Positions 18,252-26,838 of a DNA stretch of 64,000 bases are shown one piece after another (the first letter of the stretch is position 1; the number at the start of each line of letters is the position of its first letter). Below the pieces are notes generated by a model. It ran no database searches. It had not been told where the DNA came from and saw only the letters and a program-made list of their open reading frames with translations. The translations under genes and the position numbers were made by a program. The stretch comes from Bryobacterales bacterium. Lineage in GTDB: Bacteria > Acidobacteriota > Terriglobia > Bryobacterales > Bryobacteraceae. The stretch is from the NCBI GenBank assembly GCA_003136675.1, contig PLFE01000081.1:1-64000 (forward strand), written 5' to 3'.

Positions 18252-19133
18252 CTATTTAGTTTCGAGCCTCCTGATCCTGCCCTCCAGCACGAAGTCCCAG
18301 ATCCGCTCGCCAACCAGCCACCGCAAATCAAACCCACGCGCTGCCTCAAGCGCCCGGTGCGGAATCAAGCCGATCAACTCGCTTCCCGCAATCGCCACAC
18401 TCCTGCGGCGCGCCTCTTCACGAACGCGCTCGAACACGACTTGAATCGGCGTCACTTCAAAATCTGTCAGGTTAATCGAAACCTGCACCTGTCGCCGCGA
18501 TCGCAATTCCAGTCCCAACGCCTTCACGCATTGCAACCCGCCGCCGGATTCGCGAACGGCCCGCGCGATTTCCCGCGCCACCTGCAAATCCTGCGAATCG
18601 AGATTGATGTTCCAGGCCACCAGGACCTTCCGGGCCCCGACAATCACGGCGCCCGCCGTCGCGTGCCGCCCATCCCCGAAATCAGGGGCTCCGCGGAACT
18701 TCGTGGAACGGAGCACCTCCAACCGGGCCCGGCTCGCGTTGCGAGCCGCGGCTTCATAGAGAAAAGCAGGCAATCGCAACTCGTCCCAGCAGCGTGCGGC
18801 CACATCCGTCGCAATGCGCGCGCATTCCTCCATGGAACTGTTCGCGAGCGGTACAAAAGGGACCACGTCCGCCGCTCCGATCCGCGGATGAACGCCCTCG
18901 TGCGCAGGCAGAATGATGCGTGCCACCGCCATCCCCACCGCGCGAAAAGCAGCTTCCGCCACGGCTGCCGGATTTCCCGCGATGGTCAGCACCGTGCGGT
19001 TATGGTCCACATCGGACGTCCGGTCGAGCAGCGCCGCTCCGTCAACCGAATCCGCCGCATCGGCCAATGCCTCAATGGTTTCAATGTCGCGCCCTTCCGA
19101 GAAGTTCGCCACGCACTCAATCAATGACGGCAT
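18252..19133 (-). CDS. ftcD: Glutamate formimidoyltransferase
   Basis: 293 residues, the transferase part only, without the cyclodeaminase domain found in the animal fusion enzyme. It moves the formimino group of N-formiminoglutamate to tetrahydrofolate, the last step of one histidine-degradation route. The catalytic histidine context EGVHPRIGAADV puts His at residue 82, the same position as in the porcine enzyme. ECVANFSEGRD, DRTSDVDHNRTVLT and VLVAWNINLDSQDL are family hallmarks. Its start overlaps the end of the HutI-like gene by 17 bp, so the two are translationally coupled and co-transcribed. Confidence 0.95.
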   Translation of the reverse strand: MPSLIECVANFSEGRDIETIEALADAADSVDGAALLDRTSDVDHNRTVLTIAGNPAAVAEAAFRAVGMAVARIILPAHEGVHPRIGAADVVPFVPLANSSMEECARIATDVAARCWDELRLPAFLYEAAARNASRARLEVLRSTKFRGAPDFGDGRHATAGAVIVGARKVLVAWNINLDSQDLQVAREIARAVRESGGGLQCVKALGLELRSRRQVQVSINLTDFEVTPIQVVFERVREEARRRSVAIAGSELIGLIPHRALEAARGFDLRWLVGERIWDFVLEGRIRRLETK

Positions 19134-20391
19134 CCCGGTCGTCCAGTAACTGGCCTCGCTTCACCATCGTCTCCACCATGTTTACTCCGGAGTAATAAGC
19201 CACTTCGCGATAATCCGAAATACTCAATATCAGGACATCGGCTTGCTTGCCGCATTCGATTGAGCCTACCGATTCCTCGGCACCGATCGCGAAGGCCGCG
19301 TTGATCGTCGCTGAACTAATCGCTTCTTCGGGAGTCATCTGATATAGGCGGCAAGCGAGCATCAGCATGAGCTGCATGTTGTAGCCGGAACTCAATTCGG
19401 CGTGGTAACTGCTTCCCATTGCCGGAATGACTCCCGCTTCCATCATGCGCCGGAAAGGCGCCGGATAGGAAAGCCCCGCCTGAAGCAGATAGCCCGGCTT
19501 GAACACAGCCAAAGTGGAGGAAGCCGCCAGCATCTGGATGTCTTCGTCGGTAACGCTCCGGAAATTGGCTACGGAAAGTGCCCCCCATCGAACCGCTGTC
19601 GACACCGCGCTGGTCAACGCGAGATGCTCACTATGTAACTTCAACCCAAACCCCAGTTCAGAAGCTGCATAGAAAATTCGCATCAGAAGCGGCGGCGGAA
19701 TCGCTTCCCGGTCATATTCAAGATCGATGAATTTCGCCAGGCGGCGTTTGCGTACCTTGGCCAGAAGTTCTTCCGTCACCCAGCGCACCCACTCTACCGG
19801 ATCGGCGCCCGCCGTCTGTTTCAGCAGCAGCGTCGAAATCAAATCCACCGGCGCATCGCGGTGTTCGTTTTGGACCCGCAGCACTTTGAGAATGTCGCTT
19901 TCGCCCAACGCATAACCAGCGCGCGACTCAACCGTGCCCGTTCCATAACGCGCCATCCGGCGCATGATTCCGGCACTACGACGCCTCAGGGTATTCGACG
20001 AAAGCCCCGCAAGCAATTTGGCGCTATCTTCCAGTGCGTCACGCGGCGCATCGGGTGGAAGGCTGTACGGATCAACGGAAGCACCGGAAGCCGAAAGCAA
20101 CCGGTTCAACGTCTCGGGTGACGGATGCGCATGCACCAGCGACGTTTCGACATCGACAAAAGCCGGCATTACCACGCGGCCTGTCGCATCGATCACGTCA
20201 GCGTCCCGAGCCGCGGCCAGGCTCTCGACTCGCCGCCCAGGACCGACATCTTCAATCACGCCGTTCCGGATCAGCACCGCGCCATCCGGAATCAGATGGA
20301 GATCTTGCAGGGCAGGCCCGCGACGGGGTCCGCCAGGGCCGCGCAACGTAAGCAGTTGACGCGCGCCCCGAATCAAAAGAGCAGAAGCCAA
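19117..20391 (-). CDS. Imidazolonepropionase-like amidohydrolase lacking most metal ligands
   Basis: 424 residues. Overall alignment to HutI is recognisable: an N-terminal beta-sandwich (LIRNGVIEDVGPG), VMPAFVDVETSLVHAHP, GTVESRAGYALGESD, KLHSEHLALT, ALSVANFRSV, AGVIPAMGSSYHAE and a C-terminal GSIECGKQADVLILS. But the HxH pair after FVD is replaced by E82 and S84, the second-sphere His becomes F277 and the catalytic Asp becomes S328; only H253 remains. A nearby HAH (87-89) is out of register. It is either a non-catalytic homologue or a changed enzyme. The start is TTG, with no better ATG. It overlaps ftcD, matching the pathway order HutI then FtcD. Confidence 0.85.
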   Translation of the reverse strand: MASALLIRGARQLLTLRGPGGPRRGPALQDLHLIPDGAVLIRNGVIEDVGPGRRVESLAAARDADVIDATGRVVMPAFVDVETSLVHAHPSPETLNRLLSASGASVDPYSLPPDAPRDALEDSAKLLAGLSSNTLRRRSAGIMRRMARYGTGTVESRAGYALGESDILKVLRVQNEHRDAPVDLISTLLLKQTAGADPVEWVRWVTEELLAKVRKRRLAKFIDLEYDREAIPPPLLMRIFYAASELGFGLKLHSEHLALTSAVSTAVRWGALSVANFRSVTDEDIQMLAASSTLAVFKPGYLLQAGLSYPAPFRRMMEAGVIPAMGSSYHAELSSGYNMQLMLMLACRLYQMTPEEAISSATINAAFAIGAEESVGSIECGKQADVLILSISDYREVAYYSGVNMVETMVKRGQLLDDRDAVID

Positions 20392-20423: not shown

Positions 20424-22706
20424 TCACTTCATGTCTTTCTTCAGATCTCGCATCCTATTTCGTAATTCTTCCGTCGCATCGGTAATCTGCGTCGTGTCAT
20501 AGATGACATGCGGGGTGAGGAAAATGATCAGCTCCGTGCGCGTGGTGCTGATGGCCTTGTTCCCGAACAAACCGCCGATGTAGGGGATTCTGTCGAGGAC
20601 CGGGATGCCGGTGTTGGTCACGCTGTTGGACGACATGATGATTCCGCCGATCGCGATGGTGTCGCCGTCCTCGAGGGTCACTTGCGTAGTCACGTTCCGC
20701 CGGTTGAAGGACGGAGAACTAATGTCGCTGAAGCTTGTGGTGGTAGGCGCGCTGACGTCCTGATCCACCACCAACGTGACCACTCCGCTCGAATTCACCC
20801 GGGCGATCACGTTCAGGTTTACGCCGGTTCCCACGGTCGATACGGCCGACGTTGTCGAGCCGCCCAGTCCCGTCGAAACCGACGTCGCCGAAAGCGTTGG
20901 AATCTCCTGTCCCACCGTGATCGACGCGGGAATACTGTCGGTGGCGATCAACTGCGGCGATGAAATCGAACGTGCCTGGCTTCTCTGCTCATACAAATTG
21001 ACCGCCGCCAGCAGCTCACGTGAATGGCCCACCAACATACCGGCGGTGAAAGTGGCTCCGGAAGCCGTAGGCGCCAAAATGCCTGCCGTGGTGCTGGCCA
21101 AACCGTTGAAGCCACCCAATAGCTGGCGGTTGGCGGTGTCCTTAGCCTGTAAACTAGCCTCCACGCCATATTGCAACTGGCCCGTCAAATCCACTTCATA
21201 GATTTTCGCGTCAATCAAAACCTGGCGCGGCGGCACATCAATCTGCTCCAACAGGTGCAGAATCGATTCCCACTGTTGCGGCGTCCCCTGTACAAGCAAA
21301 GTATTGTCGTACGGATTAGGGATAATTCTAGGCGCACCGGGAACTCCGCTCCTGGCAGACGGCGCAAGATATTGCCCCGTCTGATCCGTCCCGGCGGCTA
21401 CTTCACCGAAGGGTGTGCCGCCGGTCGGCGGAGTTCCCGCCGCTGCAGTCCCGGACGTGGTGGAAGGAAACTGCGCACCAGCGGTACCAATCGCGCCGGA
21501 GTTGCTTCCACCGTAATTGCCCGCGCCAAACCCGCTCGACTGCCCGGAATTGGTAGACCCAAACATCGACCCTCCGCCGTTTCCATACCCGCCGCCCGTG
21601 CCGCCAAATCCCGCGGGACCCTGCCCGCCCCTGCCCGTCAACAAGCCGGTTCCGCCGCCGTAGCCTTGCAGCCCGTAGCCCGAGTTCCCGCCGGGAACAC
21701 TGGTTCCATAAAGCTGCGCCACCACGTTGCCCAGAATCTCGGCTCGTCCATACTTCAGCTTGTAAACGTGATTATCGATCGCACCGGAAGTCAGCTTCAC
21801 CGGAACATCCAACTTGTCGATCCAGCGCTTCACTTCTCCGAATGCAGCCGGATTCGAAACCACCGCAATCAGCGTGCTGATGCGGTCGATCGGGATGAAT
21901 TTCACCGCCGCGTTTTTCTCTGAAAACGCGTAAGCCTTGAACAGCACATCCAGATCTTTCGCCAGATCGCTGGGGCGCCCGTTGACTACCTGAAAGGCTT
22001 GCACGCGCTGCCCCGCCATGGACTCCGCATCGAACATGGAGATCAGTTCCAAGGTGCGCTTCATGTTGCGCGCATTGTCCTGAATAATGAGAAGGTTTGC
22101 CGGATCATAGGCCACCATCTTGTAGCCCTCACCCAGAAAGGGATCGAGAAGCTTAGCCATCTCGGCCGAGGTGACGTACTTCAGGAAGATCAGATTCAGC
22201 ACCGGCTGTTCGCTGTCGCTCAGGTTTTTCGAATCGGAGGAAGGTTCTACCGGTAGACGCGCGGCTTCGGCCGAGGGCACAATCCGGTAGAGGTTGCCCA
22301 CCTGCACCATGGCGTAACCGTTCATCCGCAGGATGGTTTCGAGAAGATTGCGCAGGTCCACCGCGCGCAATTCGCCGTAGGTGTTGATGGTCACTTTTCC
22401 GGTTACTTTGGGATCCAGAATGTAGTTGATCTTCAGATCGCGCGCCAGGATGTCAATCACCTCCACCAGCGAAGCATTGGTGAGGTTGAGCCCCGGAGGA
22501 ACGCTGGCCGGTTTCGCCCGGGGAGCCGGGGCAGGCGTTTCAGCCGGTGCTGTTGTAGCCGCGGGCGTTACGGCGGGCTGGGTTTCGGTTCCCGACCGGA
22601 TCGGAACTTGTGGCCGGTCGGGCGGCGGCGCCGGCGGCTTCACTTGTGCCCCAGCGAGCGACACGAAAAAACACAGGGTAACCGCGCTGGGGAAAAAACG
22701 GAACAC
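20424..22706 (-). CDS. gspD: Type II secretion system secretin
   Basis: 760 residues. A signal peptide is followed by a Pro-rich linker (about 25-70), an N0 domain (NLTNASLVEVIDILARDLK), N1/N2 domains (LNLIFLKYVTSAEMAKLLD; VQAFQVVNGRPSDLAKDL), a Gly/Ser/Asn-rich insertion of about 90 residues near 345-435, an N3-like segment ending VPPRQVLIDAKIYEV, and the secretin barrel with QEIPTLSAT, RNVTTQVTLEDGDTIAIGG and GIPVLDRIPYIGGLFG. It forms the outer-membrane gate. It is the last gene of the minus-strand T2SS operon. The glycine-rich insertion is unusually long and lies within the N domains. Confidence 0.96.
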   Translation of the reverse strand: MFRFFPSAVTLCFFVSLAGAQVKPPAPPPDRPQVPIRSGTETQPAVTPAATTAPAETPAPAPRAKPASVPPGLNLTNASLVEVIDILARDLKINYILDPKVTGKVTINTYGELRAVDLRNLLETILRMNGYAMVQVGNLYRIVPSAEAARLPVEPSSDSKNLSDSEQPVLNLIFLKYVTSAEMAKLLDPFLGEGYKMVAYDPANLLIIQDNARNMKRTLELISMFDAESMAGQRVQAFQVVNGRPSDLAKDLDVLFKAYAFSEKNAAVKFIPIDRISTLIAVVSNPAAFGEVKRWIDKLDVPVKLTSGAIDNHVYKLKYGRAEILGNVVAQLYGTSVPGGNSGYGLQGYGGGTGLLTGRGGQGPAGFGGTGGGYGNGGGSMFGSTNSGQSSGFGAGNYGGSNSGAIGTAGAQFPSTTSGTAAAGTPPTGGTPFGEVAAGTDQTGQYLAPSARSGVPGAPRIIPNPYDNTLLVQGTPQQWESILHLLEQIDVPPRQVLIDAKIYEVDLTGQLQYGVEASLQAKDTANRQLLGGFNGLASTTAGILAPTASGATFTAGMLVGHSRELLAAVNLYEQRSQARSISSPQLIATDSIPASITVGQEIPTLSATSVSTGLGGSTTSAVSTVGTGVNLNVIARVNSSGVVTLVVDQDVSAPTTTSFSDISSPSFNRRNVTTQVTLEDGDTIAIGGIIMSSNSVTNTGIPVLDRIPYIGGLFGNKAISTTRTELIIFLTPHVIYDTTQITDATEELRNRMRDLKKDMK

Positions 22707-22708
22707 TT

Positions 22709-23218
22709 CTACTGGTTTCCCTTCGGTTGCACGCGCGCCCAGATCTTCTGTTCATCCGCCGTCAGGTCGTTCTTGCTCTTCTGCCACCGAATCACTCCGA
22801 ACGGCGAGGGACGCGAGAACTCGATGCTCTCGCCCTTCGCAACCGCGGTTACTTTTGCGTTCGGGTCATCGCTCTCTTTTGCCGAGGCTTGCGCGCTGGT
22901 CACGGCGGCAATCGCCGCGGCCTGGCTCTTCGACTGGCCAAACGGCGTCTTGCCCGCCGGCTGCCCTACTGCCGATTCGAGAGAACGGCTCAATCCGAAC
23001 GGGGTTTGACGGTAAATCCAGGCGGTCCCTTTCGGGTCCACATACCGGAAAGACCCGTCGCCCTGATCGACGGCCGTCTTCGGAATCACCAATGGCGCGC
23101 TGGCCACCTTGGCTTTCTTCTTGACGGGCGGCGACTGCGCCGAGGTAACTGTTTGCGCGAACGAGCCTTGAACAAAAATCGACCCGGCAGCGATAGCCAA
23201 CACCAAAATCATTTTCAT
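22709..23218 (-). CDS. Unknown exported protein inside the T2SS operon
   Basis: 169 residues with a signal peptide (MKMILVLAIAAGSIFVQGSFA) and a ribosome site (AAGGA) upstream. The mature part is Lys/Ala/Ser-rich with two short similar motifs, YRQTPFGLSRSLES and SRPSPFGVIRWQKS, both containing a 'PFG' core; a third PFG occurs in GKTPFGQSK. I do not recognise a family. Its place between the gspC-like gene and gspD, 2 bp from the secretin gene, suggests a periplasmic accessory, for example a pilotin-like or inner/outer-membrane bridging factor. No lipobox cysteine is present, so it is not a classical lipoprotein pilotin. Confidence 0.75.
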   Translation of the reverse strand: MKMILVLAIAAGSIFVQGSFAQTVTSAQSPPVKKKAKVASAPLVIPKTAVDQGDGSFRYVDPKGTAWIYRQTPFGLSRSLESAVGQPAGKTPFGQSKSQAAAIAAVTSAQASAKESDDPNAKVTAVAKGESIEFSRPSPFGVIRWQKSKNDLTADEQKIWARVQPKGNQ

Positions 23219-23236
23219 TTTTGCGATCCTTTTTCC

Positions 23237-23971
23237 TTACTTGACCAGTTCCCAGTGGCATGAACTTCCAAACGGGTTCGGTATCAAAACCTTCCGGTAG
23301 CCATCCGCCACCGTTCCGTTCGGCGAGTTGTCACCGGGCGTACACGTCTTGACATCCTGCTCACCCACGGACTGCACACCCGGTTTTCCGGGACCCTGCG
23401 CAGCCGGCGCGCTCACGATAGACGACCCCGACGACGCGCTTGGCGGCGCGCTCGCGGGCGGCGCCTTTTCCGCCACTTCCAAACCGTGGTAGATCATCTC
23501 TGAGACGCTTTTCGTGACCGTTTTGTCTTCCCACTTCAAAGAAATCTCGTCACGCGTCAAATCCGCCAGTTCGAATGCGCCTACCGTATCCCCTACCTTC
23601 ACGCCCTTGCTCGGCGATTTTGCATCGGCGCTCATCAACGCCAGCATGCCGCTCGGCAGGCCCATCACGCCATGCAATATCGGCAGCGGAGGCATGGGTG
23701 GCTTGGGCTTCTCGACCACCACCACCACAATGTTCGGATTGCGCTCTTTACTGAACAGCATCTTGTTCGCGATATCGCTGTAGCTCGCCGCCACCACGGG
23801 CGGCGGCGCGGCCGGAATCGAAACCGCCGGCACCGGCGGGGGCGTCACCTTGGCCTTCCGGATCTGGTCTTCGTGTTCCTTCTGCGCCGCCCACTCGCCT
23901 TGCACCTTCCACCCGGCAGCCACGATCAGACCCACCAGCAGCACATTCAGCAGGATCAGATTTCTCTTCAT
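23237..23971 (-). CDS. GspC-like inner-membrane component of T2SS
   Basis: 244 residues: a single N-terminal transmembrane helix (LILLNVLLVGLIVAAGW), a Pro-rich periplasmic linker, then a homology-region-like beta domain (PILHGVMGLPSGMLALM, VKVGDTVGAFELADLTRDEISLKWEDKTVTKSV), as found in GspC and PilP. There is no PDZ domain; the C-terminal tail is low complexity and ends in a cysteine-containing segment. By topology and operon position it takes the GspC role linking the inner-membrane platform to the secretin. It overlaps the gspM-like gene by 4 bp. Confidence 0.75.
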   Translation of the reverse strand: MKRNLILLNVLLVGLIVAAGWKVQGEWAAQKEHEDQIRKAKVTPPPVPAVSIPAAPPPVVAASYSDIANKMLFSKERNPNIVVVVVEKPKPPMPPLPILHGVMGLPSGMLALMSADAKSPSKGVKVGDTVGAFELADLTRDEISLKWEDKTVTKSVSEMIYHGLEVAEKAPPASAPPSASSGSSIVSAPAAQGPGKPGVQSVGEQDVKTCTPGDNSPNGTVADGYRKVLIPNPFGSSCHWELVK

Positions 23972-24546
23972 AACGCCATCATGTTCTTCTTCTCGGGCAC
24001 CAGCTTCTTCGGAACCACTCCGGCGAGAGTCACACGCACGTTCACGGTCTTGTTCTTGGCGTTGCCGACTGAGATATGGACTTCCGCGGGCGCGATCAGC
24101 TCCGTCTCTTTGGAAAGATCCGCTAGAAAATTGACGAACGAATCGATGGTGCTCTCAAACGTCACCGAGACCGCCACCTGTCCGTAATCCGTACCCAGCA
24201 ACGCAGGCGGAGAGAAGTCGCCACCGCGCGCGTCGATCTTGTTCGCAATGGCAATGCGCCGAATCACTTCCATCAGATGCGCCTGCGCCTGGGCCGCGGT
24301 GTTGAACGCCATTATGCCCTTCTCGCGGGTCTTCAAGACGGTATCCACGCTCTGCAAGGCCGCGCTTTTTTCGGGAACCATGGAAGCCGTTTTGCGTAGT
24401 TTGGCCAAGCGGCTTTCGAGCAGCGTTGGGGAATCGGTCACAGAGACAATCTGCGGCGTGGTATCGGAGGAGCGATCGATAATTACCCCCGCCACGCCCA
24501 GCACGAAGGCGCCCAGCATGATCAAATTCCGGGTTGACAAGTTCAC
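23968..24546 (-). CDS. gspM: GspM/PilO-like T2SS platform protein
   Basis: 192 residues: an N-terminal transmembrane helix (LIMLGAFVLGVAGVIID), a coiled region (LLESRLAKLRKTASM) and a ferredoxin-like C-terminal domain (VAVSVTFESTIDSFVNFLADLSKETE). This is the GspM/PilO fold that stabilises GspL under the pseudopilus. It uses a GTG start overlapping the gspL stop by 4 bp (GTGA). The name is given from fold features and operon order, because sequence identity in this family is low. Confidence 0.75.
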   Translation of the reverse strand: MNLSTRNLIMLGAFVLGVAGVIIDRSSDTTPQIVSVTDSPTLLESRLAKLRKTASMVPEKSAALQSVDTVLKTREKGIMAFNTAAQAQAHLMEVIRRIAIANKIDARGGDFSPPALLGTDYGQVAVSVTFESTIDSFVNFLADLSKETELIAPAEVHISVGNAKNKTVNVRVTLAGVVPKKLVPEKKNMMAL

Positions 24547-25871
24547 TTGCGCCTCCGGTAGGTCTTGATCCGGAACAGCTCGTTGCTGCCCGCCCGCACC
24601 ACGGAATTGGTGAACTCCGAGTTATGGAACAGCGGCGAACTGTCGATGATCTTCAGAAGCGGCGCGGCCTGCTCCGCTTCGCCCGAAATCACCACGTAGT
24701 CCGGATAGACTTCCACCACCGACGCCCAGGTCGGTGGCGGCAGCAACCGGGTCAGTTCGTTGAGCACTTCAAAATCTTCGTGGGAACGTCCGCGGAAACT
24801 GTCGAGAGTCTGAATCTGCTCGCGCTCGTGAACGATTCTGCCATCGAGCGCCGTCGATTTCTGCGCGACAGGCTGCACTCGCGAGATCTCCTGCGCCAGC
24901 GCCTGGATATAGCGTCGCTGGCGGTAAGGGCCCACGGCAAAGATGGCAATGGTAGCCAGCACCAGAAGCAACACGAGTATACCGGTCGGGATCAGCCAGA
25001 TCCGTGACTGCCCCGCCCTGCGCTCTGGCGGCAGAAAATTCGCCGGACGTACGAGGAGCGGGCAGGCCGCGCCGATCGCCGCCGCGTAGACCACTGGGCG
25101 GCTCATTACCGAGCCTTCGCGGTCCTGGCGGGGAAGCACCGACATCAAATCGCAAGGATCCAGATTCGAGGGCAAACGCAACTCCGCCGCACCCACCGAG
25201 ACCGCTCGCGCCGCGCTCGAGAATTCTCCGGTAAAGATCACCGATTGCGCGTTCTCGCCGTAGGCCTCGACGACGCCAGGTGTAGTTTCCGTGATCCCGA
25301 GGAACGGCCTGGCCGGGCGTCCGAAGAGCCGCAACGCGGAATGCAGCACGGAAGCGGAGCAGGTGAAACTCGCCACCGGAATGCCCGCTTCGGCGAAGAG
25401 CGATTCGTACTTGCCCAGCAGGCTCTGCCGCGTAATGCCCACCAGCGCCCCGCCTTCAACCGCGGCCCAGCACCAGGCCACGTCATCATCCCCAAATGGA
25501 TGCAGCGCACGCAGCCGCAATGCCAGCGCCGCGGCCATTTCGCGCCGCGACACGCTGGGTAGCAGCACATGCCTGACAATCAGGTCGCGCCTCGGCAGCA
25601 GAACGGTTACGCCCGACGGATCGTGCCCCTTCACGCATTCCCGGAACTCGTTGGACCATTCGGCGGCGGGCCTTTCGTGGTATCGACCGATGGTCTTGCG
25701 CCGCAACAGTTCCGGGCCGCCCGGACGGACGCGCACCAGCGCCACCTCTAGCGAATCGCCCAGAATCTCAATCGCGACGCCAGTTCCAAAGGCCGCGTAG
25801 GCGCGCCAGCCGGAACGTTTCTCCCGCCCTTCCGCGGTCGCAACGACCGGCGCCGCCTCAGCCGCGGTCAT
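24543..25871 (-). CDS. gspL: GspL-like T2SS platform protein (PilM-PilN type fusion)
   Basis: 442 residues. The cytoplasmic N-terminal part (about 1-290) looks actin-like/PilM-like (GVAIEILGDSLEVALVRV, LLPRRDLIVRHVLLPSVSRREMAAALALRLRALHPF). A single transmembrane helix follows (IWLIPTGILVLLLVLATIAIFAV, about 300-322), then a coiled segment and a PilN-like periplasmic domain (LNELTRLLPPPTWASVVEVYPDYVVISGEA). GspL anchors the GspE ATPase at the membrane. It overlaps gspK by 14 bp and gspM by 4 bp. Confidence 0.82.
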   Translation of the reverse strand: MTAAEAAPVVATAEGREKRSGWRAYAAFGTGVAIEILGDSLEVALVRVRPGGPELLRRKTIGRYHERPAAEWSNEFRECVKGHDPSGVTVLLPRRDLIVRHVLLPSVSRREMAAALALRLRALHPFGDDDVAWCWAAVEGGALVGITRQSLLGKYESLFAEAGIPVASFTCSASVLHSALRLFGRPARPFLGITETTPGVVEAYGENAQSVIFTGEFSSAARAVSVGAAELRLPSNLDPCDLMSVLPRQDREGSVMSRPVVYAAAIGAACPLLVRPANFLPPERRAGQSRIWLIPTGILVLLLVLATIAIFAVGPYRQRRYIQALAQEISRVQPVAQKSTALDGRIVHEREQIQTLDSFRGRSHEDFEVLNELTRLLPPPTWASVVEVYPDYVVISGEAEQAAPLLKIIDSSPLFHNSEFTNSVVRAGSNELFRIKTYRRRK

Positions 25872-26838
25872 ACCACCTCAGGATGTGGAACGTCGCTTCA
25901 GTGCCTACAGGCCGCAACTTCACCAGCGCCGATACGGTCCGCGTCAGATCGGAATAAGATCCATCCGGGCGCCGCAGACGAGCGGTTGCGCGCAGCGTGT
26001 AGATCGTGTGAGTCGCGAGCGACAGATGGCTCGCGAGCGCCGGGTCCTGCGCCGTAAACTCGGAAAGCTGCTGTGGCGAATGCACGGGGGACGATTGCTG
26101 GAAGGCGAGCACCGCCTGAATATCGTCGGCACTTGCTCCAGTCGCAGCCAGCACGGCGGGTTGCACCCAACCGGCGTCGAAACTGGAAAGAGAACCGAAT
26201 ACCGAAACACAGTTGCGCACCCCCACGCGCGGCACCAAGCGGCTTTCCGCGCCTTCGCCTTGCCGCACCCACGTTCCGTAAAACAGTTCCGGCGTCATCC
26301 CTTGCAGATTCAAAAGCTCCTCAACCTCCTGAAATGACGCATGCGGGGCGTGAAAAGACGGTGACTGGGAAAGATAGTATTGGTCGAAGTCGGTCAACTG
26401 GCCCGGTCCGTTCCCCTGGCGCCAGTCGGCAATGCCCGCGGCGATCAACTGCGCCTGGTCCGGAGATGCGCCCAGAGCCATCATCAGGTTCGCCAGCACC
26501 ACCGGGTCGGCGTTGTTCAAATCCAGTTTGGCGGCTTCCGGAATCACGTCCACCACCGCCTGGCCGGACGGGAAATTCAGAAGCATCTGGGCCTGGCCGG
26601 TAACGAAGTAGGGATTCGAGCCGTCCGGTTGGCCAGCCGACGGCGCCCACTGCATGTAGAGAATCGCTCTTTGAATGGCTCCCTGCGCCAGGTAATAGGC
26701 TCGGACATTTTCCTCACCCGTGGCAACGCGTTCCGTTTCCCCGCGCACCATAAGCGCCACGCTGAAGGCAATGGCGGTGAGTGCCGCCGACAGCCACAAT
26801 ACCGCCATCAGCGCGCTTCCTCGCCGGAGGTTAGTCAT
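25858..26838 (-). CDS. gspK: T2SS minor pseudopilin GspK
   Basis: 326 residues. It starts MTNLRRGSALMAVLWLSAAL, a GspK-type prepilin leader with the hydrophobic helix and a conserved Glu in RGETERV. AYYLAQGAIQRAILYM and the acidic segment KLDLNNADPVVLANLM are typical of GspK, which caps the pseudopilus tip with GspI and GspJ. The large inserted domain makes it about twice the size of the other pseudopilins, as usual for K. It overlaps gspJ by 8 bp. Confidence 0.9.
   Translation of the reverse strand: MTNLRRGSALMAVLWLSAALTAIAFSVALMVRGETERVATGEENVRAYYLAQGAIQRAILYMQWAPSAGQPDGSNPYFVTGQAQMLLNFPSGQAVVDVIPEAAKLDLNNADPVVLANLMMALGASPDQAQLIAAGIADWRQGNGPGQLTDFDQYYLSQSPSFHAPHASFQEVEELLNLQGMTPELFYGTWVRQGEGAESRLVPRVGVRNCVSVFGSLSSFDAGWVQPAVLAATGASADDIQAVLAFQQSSPVHSPQQLSEFTAQDPALASHLSLATHTIYTLRATARLRRPDGSYSDLTRTVSALVKLRPVGTEATFHILRWYDRG

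Follow-up and report, generated by a model that had tools for sequence, protein, structure and literature searches.

The analysed window, a stretch of 64,000 nt at the start of contig PLFE01000081.1 from a Bryobacterales bacterium, carries on its reverse strand a gene for a HutI-like protein that runs into the start of ftcD (Table 1). The protein resembles HutI along its whole length: it aligns with Bacillus HutI (PDB 2bb0) over residues 10-422 with E = 5e-51, which bears out the full-length HutI architecture described in the first-pass annotation, and it nests among HutI sequences in the tree, although its TIGR01224 score of 212.8 bits lies below the equivalog cut-off of 298.15. Judged by this homology, it is a descendant of HutI. 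The annotation had also described it as coupled to a normal-looking ftcD, and this agrees with the 17-bp overlap and with the profile search, in which the window FtcD, at 288.7 bits, exceeded the cut-off of 221.25; its H82 falls in the column of the His in the 'GEHPR' motif of pig FTCD, and PF02971 matches its C-terminal formiminotransferase subdomain over 2-105 of 145 positions. The region directly upstream of the hutI-like gene on the same strand (20424-26838) contains the gspD secretin gene, a protein K match and the genes between them.

Table 1 Features of the window around the hutI-like gene (residue columns taken from the alignment to 2bb0)
Feature	Position	Strand	Remarks
Single-domain FtcD	18252..19133	-	293 aa; formiminotransferase domains only, without cyclodeaminase domain
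Overlap between the end of the hutI-like gene and the start of ftcD	19117..19133	-	17 bp
Putative HutI-derived pseudoenzyme	19117..20391	-	424 aa, TTG start
S328	19408..19410	-	column of the metal/base Asp of 'ATDFNPG'
N276	19564..19566	-	column of the catalytic His of 'ADHL'
H253	19633..19635	-	sole metal ligand retained; His of 'LKIHAD'
S84	20140..20142	-	column of the second metal His (HxH)
E82	20146..20148	-	column of the first metal His (HxH)
gspD	20424..22706	-	type II secretion secretin, directly upstream of the hutI-like gene

The alignment to 2bb0 places E82, S84, H253 and S328 at the four metal-ligand columns of HutI (H, H, H, D; the first two form the HxH after 'VD'), so that three of the four ligands are lost and only H253 is kept, as originally reported. 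The His of 'ADHL', which we take to be a catalytic residue and not a metal ligand, is gone as well; its replacement had been recognized correctly, while the position given for it, F277, is one residue off the true column, N276. The HAH at residues 87-89 does exist in the window protein. Among the compared copies, it recurs only in the sister species (G001), and it is therefore not a conserved relocated site. The sister species possesses an independent full-length HutI copy with the pattern Q/S/H/N at the ligand columns, which makes the ligand loss in the window more than a chance event. A single-sequence AlphaFold prediction of the window protein gave an unusable model (pLDDT 35.7).

The window genome harbors a second HutI on contig C191, with all ligands intact and a score above the TIGR01224 cut-off, adjoining hutU, hutF (formimidoylglutamate deiminase) and an ArgE-like hydrolase gene. 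Since this contig encodes intact HutI, HutU and HutF, the gene content suggests that histidine breakdown can run via the HutF route and that the window HutI and FtcD are dispensable for it. At locus L120 (7076-8518) and on contig C226 of genome G000, hutU contains undetermined sequence and was split in the search, and hutH lies in two overlapping frames; these are probably assembly faults.

HutI copies and their neighbours were aligned across the family, order and class of the window genome, with ligand states read from automatic alignments, and 85 of the loci proved to be linked to ftcD. Where hutU was adjacent, all four HutI ligands were intact (27 of 27 loci); where it was not, at least one ligand was lost in 56 of 58. 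The two exceptions without adjacent hutU are G025, in which the catalytic His is lost, and G058, in which hutU lies somewhat further upstream. Between one and four ligands are missing from each degenerate copy, often together with the catalytic His and residues of the pocket, and the patterns vary by lineage (E/S/H/S, Q/S/H/N, H/M/H/G, Q/H/R/A, D/V/R/A and others). In a thinned set of 43 degenerate sequences with at least two ligands lost, the Asp column contained no Asp and held Gly in 32. The consistent E/S/F/S pattern across a clade, proposed beforehand as a test of a new subfamily, was absent; ligand loss is idiosyncratic, and even the sister species departs from that pattern. In the rest of the class and the phylum, HutI was intact in all of the ~ 54 genomes sampled, which were mostly better-scoring hits, so that rare degenerate cases there may be missed.

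The supported branches of the FtcD tree require four or more switches between the intact and the degenerate state, and the best tree has six, the direction of each resting on the assumption that the intact state is ancestral. An independent-pairs test, underpowered with four supported pairs, found agreement with hutU loss in two to three of them and disagreement in none. Taken together, the alignments indicate that the HutI metal site is lost recurrently within one bacterial family, usually beside ftcD. One HutI subgroup, HHHN, keeps all three His and carries Asn in place of the Asp, and it often does not adjoin ftcD (loci L103, L104, L129, L211-L217, L219-L222 and L234). Its pairs show higher dN/dS, ~ 0.2-0.4, and these copies, which are under weaker constraint and stand partly apart as a group, may still be active.

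These data raise the question of why the degenerate genes persist. One answer would be that they are slow relics, dead genes drifting to loss under relaxed selection, and the idiosyncratic ligand loss and the frequent deletion of the active-site loop at about residues 100-118 fit such a decay. Some copies are also shortened or broken: that of G004 measures only 271 aa, that of G053 is interrupted, and in some genomes, many of them of genera g24 and g38, FtcD is kept but no HutI-like gene was detected. The broken copy of G053 (locus L110) belongs to a related family, where the degenerate hutI contains a stop and adjoins ftcD. Relaxed selection, however, is contradicted by the substitution data. 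In five species pairs with degenerate copies, taken from different genera and including one genus without adjacent ftcD, the observed amino-acid changes against the neutral mean were 14/37, 25/91, 42/74, 59/114 and 27/140, i.e., two to five times fewer than expected and below all 500 neutral simulations in each pair. The dN/dS values (NG86) of these pairs were ~ 0.04-0.21, low in both the barrel and the small domain, and thus near the 0.07-0.15 of three intact HutI pairs. In several degenerate pairs, HutI was at least as conserved as FtcD (HutI/FtcD identities of 94/87%, 93/88% and 97/94%). Moreover, 47 of 52 degenerate copies still measure at least 380 aa despite large divergence. Purifying selection acts on the whole degenerate protein in these relatives, as the first-pass annotation had supposed for the open frame; it was measured there since the pair that includes the window copy, at 58% identity, has diverged too far for a reliable dN/dS, and YN00 fails on distant pairs. 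A simple relic is accordingly an improbable account. An apparent gain of constraint at R53/R54 and similar sites of the degenerate copies was rejected, as nearby intact relatives share these residues.

Selection on the frame could also be explained without any function of the protein, if a dead hutI served as a translational leader, kept open only so that ribosomes reach the overlapping ftcD start. The stop/start overlap with ftcD is indeed common among the linked loci, and ftcD itself is near-universal. A leader, however, predicts no amino-acid constraint, in conflict with the deficit of changes and the low dN/dS across the barrel, and a short one would suffice, yet the full length is retained. 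One additional piece of evidence against it is provided by degenerate copies located away from ftcD, in genus g50 and in G008 and G023. In g50, the degenerate HutI lies behind gspD, ftcD is absent from the fetched flank, and the closest degenerate pair, with no ftcD following, shows a dN/dS of 0.07. The leader explanation is largely refuted by g50 and is left with a small probability, slightly above that of the relic.

Another important question is whether the selected property could be catalysis. The initial reading had offered an enzyme that dispenses with the usual metal or has moved its site, and purifying selection on the protein, as well as H253 and the HAH in the window copy, would be in keeping with a new enzyme. 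Across the degenerate copies, however, the active-site strands are decayed, the columns of the ligands and of the rest of the active site have changed in a different way in every lineage, and no conserved alternative set of polar pocket residues was found, while the HAH occurs only in the two sister species. Both variants of this proposal thus find no support, and we regard a new enzyme as no more probable than a relic. The conservation of residues 1-80 and 351-395, by contrast with the decayed strands, is close to that seen in intact HutI. Since the small domain and the length are kept while the pocket varies freely, a non-catalytic role appears the most likely one, and because selection preserves a full-length protein despite the loss of the site, a new job of this kind is probable. 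We therefore consider it very likely that the degenerate HutI is a maintained non-catalytic protein.

What such a protein might serve is suggested by the state of FtcD. Among loci where the FtcD length is known, FtcD is short in 50 of 54 degenerate loci and long in 24 of 26 ligand-intact ones. The extra domain was confirmed as cyclodeaminase PF04961 in one long FtcD; two of the four long exceptions at degenerate loci lack the cyclodeaminase GGGS motif, and one of these reaches only the Pfam threshold for the domain. FtcD was found in 59 of 61 relatives, including all 49 good genomes among them, and family-wide the good genomes have FtcD in 146 of 148 and hutU in 63 of 148. By comparison, 5-formyl-THF cycloligase (5-FCL) was detected in none of the 61 relatives, whereas the same search was positive in 11 of 14 control genomes. 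FtcD proteins of COG3643, including that of an Acidobacterium gene, replace 5-FCL (YgfA) in E. coli, and for the Acidobacterium gene the clearance of 5-formyl-THF in vivo has been demonstrated (PMC3223725). The window genome, with formiminotransferase domains present and 5-FCL absent, fits the use of FtcD as a 5-FCL substitute. Because 5-FCL is absent, FtcD is near-universal and FtcD replaces 5-FCL elsewhere, 5-formyl-THF disposal and folate repair are a plausible reason for the retention of FtcD once histidine catabolism is lost or moved. That FtcD was freed for folate maintenance is likely, to a degree little short of the non-catalytic status of its companion. For the same locus, the earlier suggestion of a scaffold or regulator for formimino transfer holds in one half: a role other than catalysis fits the evidence best, but formimino transfer is unlikely to be involved, given that the adjacent FtcD usually lacks the cyclodeaminase, that hutU no longer belongs to the locus, and that the histidine genes of the window genome lie elsewhere together with HutF.

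The partner of the degenerate HutI could in principle be sought among other neighbours: the window lineage has type II secretion genes upstream of it, and in many lineages lipA lies beyond ftcD. The gene preceding the degenerate HutI is gspD in G000, G001, G007 and genus g50, whereas lipA comes after ftcD at many of the linked loci and, in G008, directly after the degenerate HutI itself. Neither gspD nor lipA, however, is common to all lineages, and ftcD is the commonest neighbour; a partnership with either is very unlikely, the least probable of the alternatives. The lipA gene (lipoyl synthase) was recorded 3' of ftcD at loci L106, L107, L111, L119, L126, L127 and others, and directly after the degenerate HutI at L116, the locus of G008. 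Being the commonest neighbour makes FtcD the leading guess, so that the degenerate HutI may be its partner or stabiliser; a physical partnership can be proposed tentatively, with rather less than even confidence. The role would not be obligatory, because some genera have FtcD without a detected HutI.

The course of events could have been as follows. The ancestral operon would have been hutU-hutI-ftcD, with FtcD a two-domain formiminotransferase-cyclodeaminase. A lineage would then drop the Hut pathway or move it to another locus, retaining FtcD since 5-FCL is absent and FtcD would be needed to clear 5-formyl-THF. The cyclodeaminase domain would then be lost from FtcD, and the neighbouring HutI would lose its metal site and substrate pocket while keeping the small beta-domain, the length and probably the fold. 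The resulting protein would catalyse nothing itself and would most likely bind or stabilise the FtcD-side folate system. This explanation as a whole, in which a HutI pseudoenzyme arises recurrently and is maintained by selection, with the release of FtcD to folate work as the trigger, is the one we favour, with somewhat better than even confidence. Its most specific form, that within one family HutI repeatedly becomes a regulatory or structural, non-catalytic partner dedicated to single-domain FtcD each time FtcD is released from histidine breakdown, is more doubtful and is put forward as a possibility.

Pseudoenzymes of the amidohydrolase superfamily, e.g., the dihydropyrimidinase-related CRMP proteins, have lost the metal site and perform a non-catalytic role. 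The degenerate HutI is similar in keeping the amidohydrolase sequence and probably the fold, in the loss of the metal site and in its predicted non-catalytic role; unlike CRMP, it is bacterial, derived from HutI, lost its site several times in one family and is tied to a folate-repair gene. With imidazolonepropionase proper (TIGR01224; PDB 2bb0/2g3f), it shares the full-length match, the small beta-domain motifs, the C-terminal DYRE...GxN and the place before ftcD, and it differs by the missing ligands and, often, the missing catalytic His and pocket. The COG3643 study likewise concerns FtcD retained where 5-FCL is absent, but its accessible text mentions no degenerate HutI companion (PMC3223725). 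A literature search for a HutI pseudoenzyme found nothing relevant.

For annotation, these results mean that an 'imidazolonepropionase' beside ftcD in this family is often wrongly named and that its presence does not equal histidine degradation. More broadly, the intact, partly degraded and fully degraded copies of related genera form a natural series from active enzyme to putative pseudoenzyme, with a plausible metabolic trigger, and such a series makes it possible to test why dead enzymes are retained.
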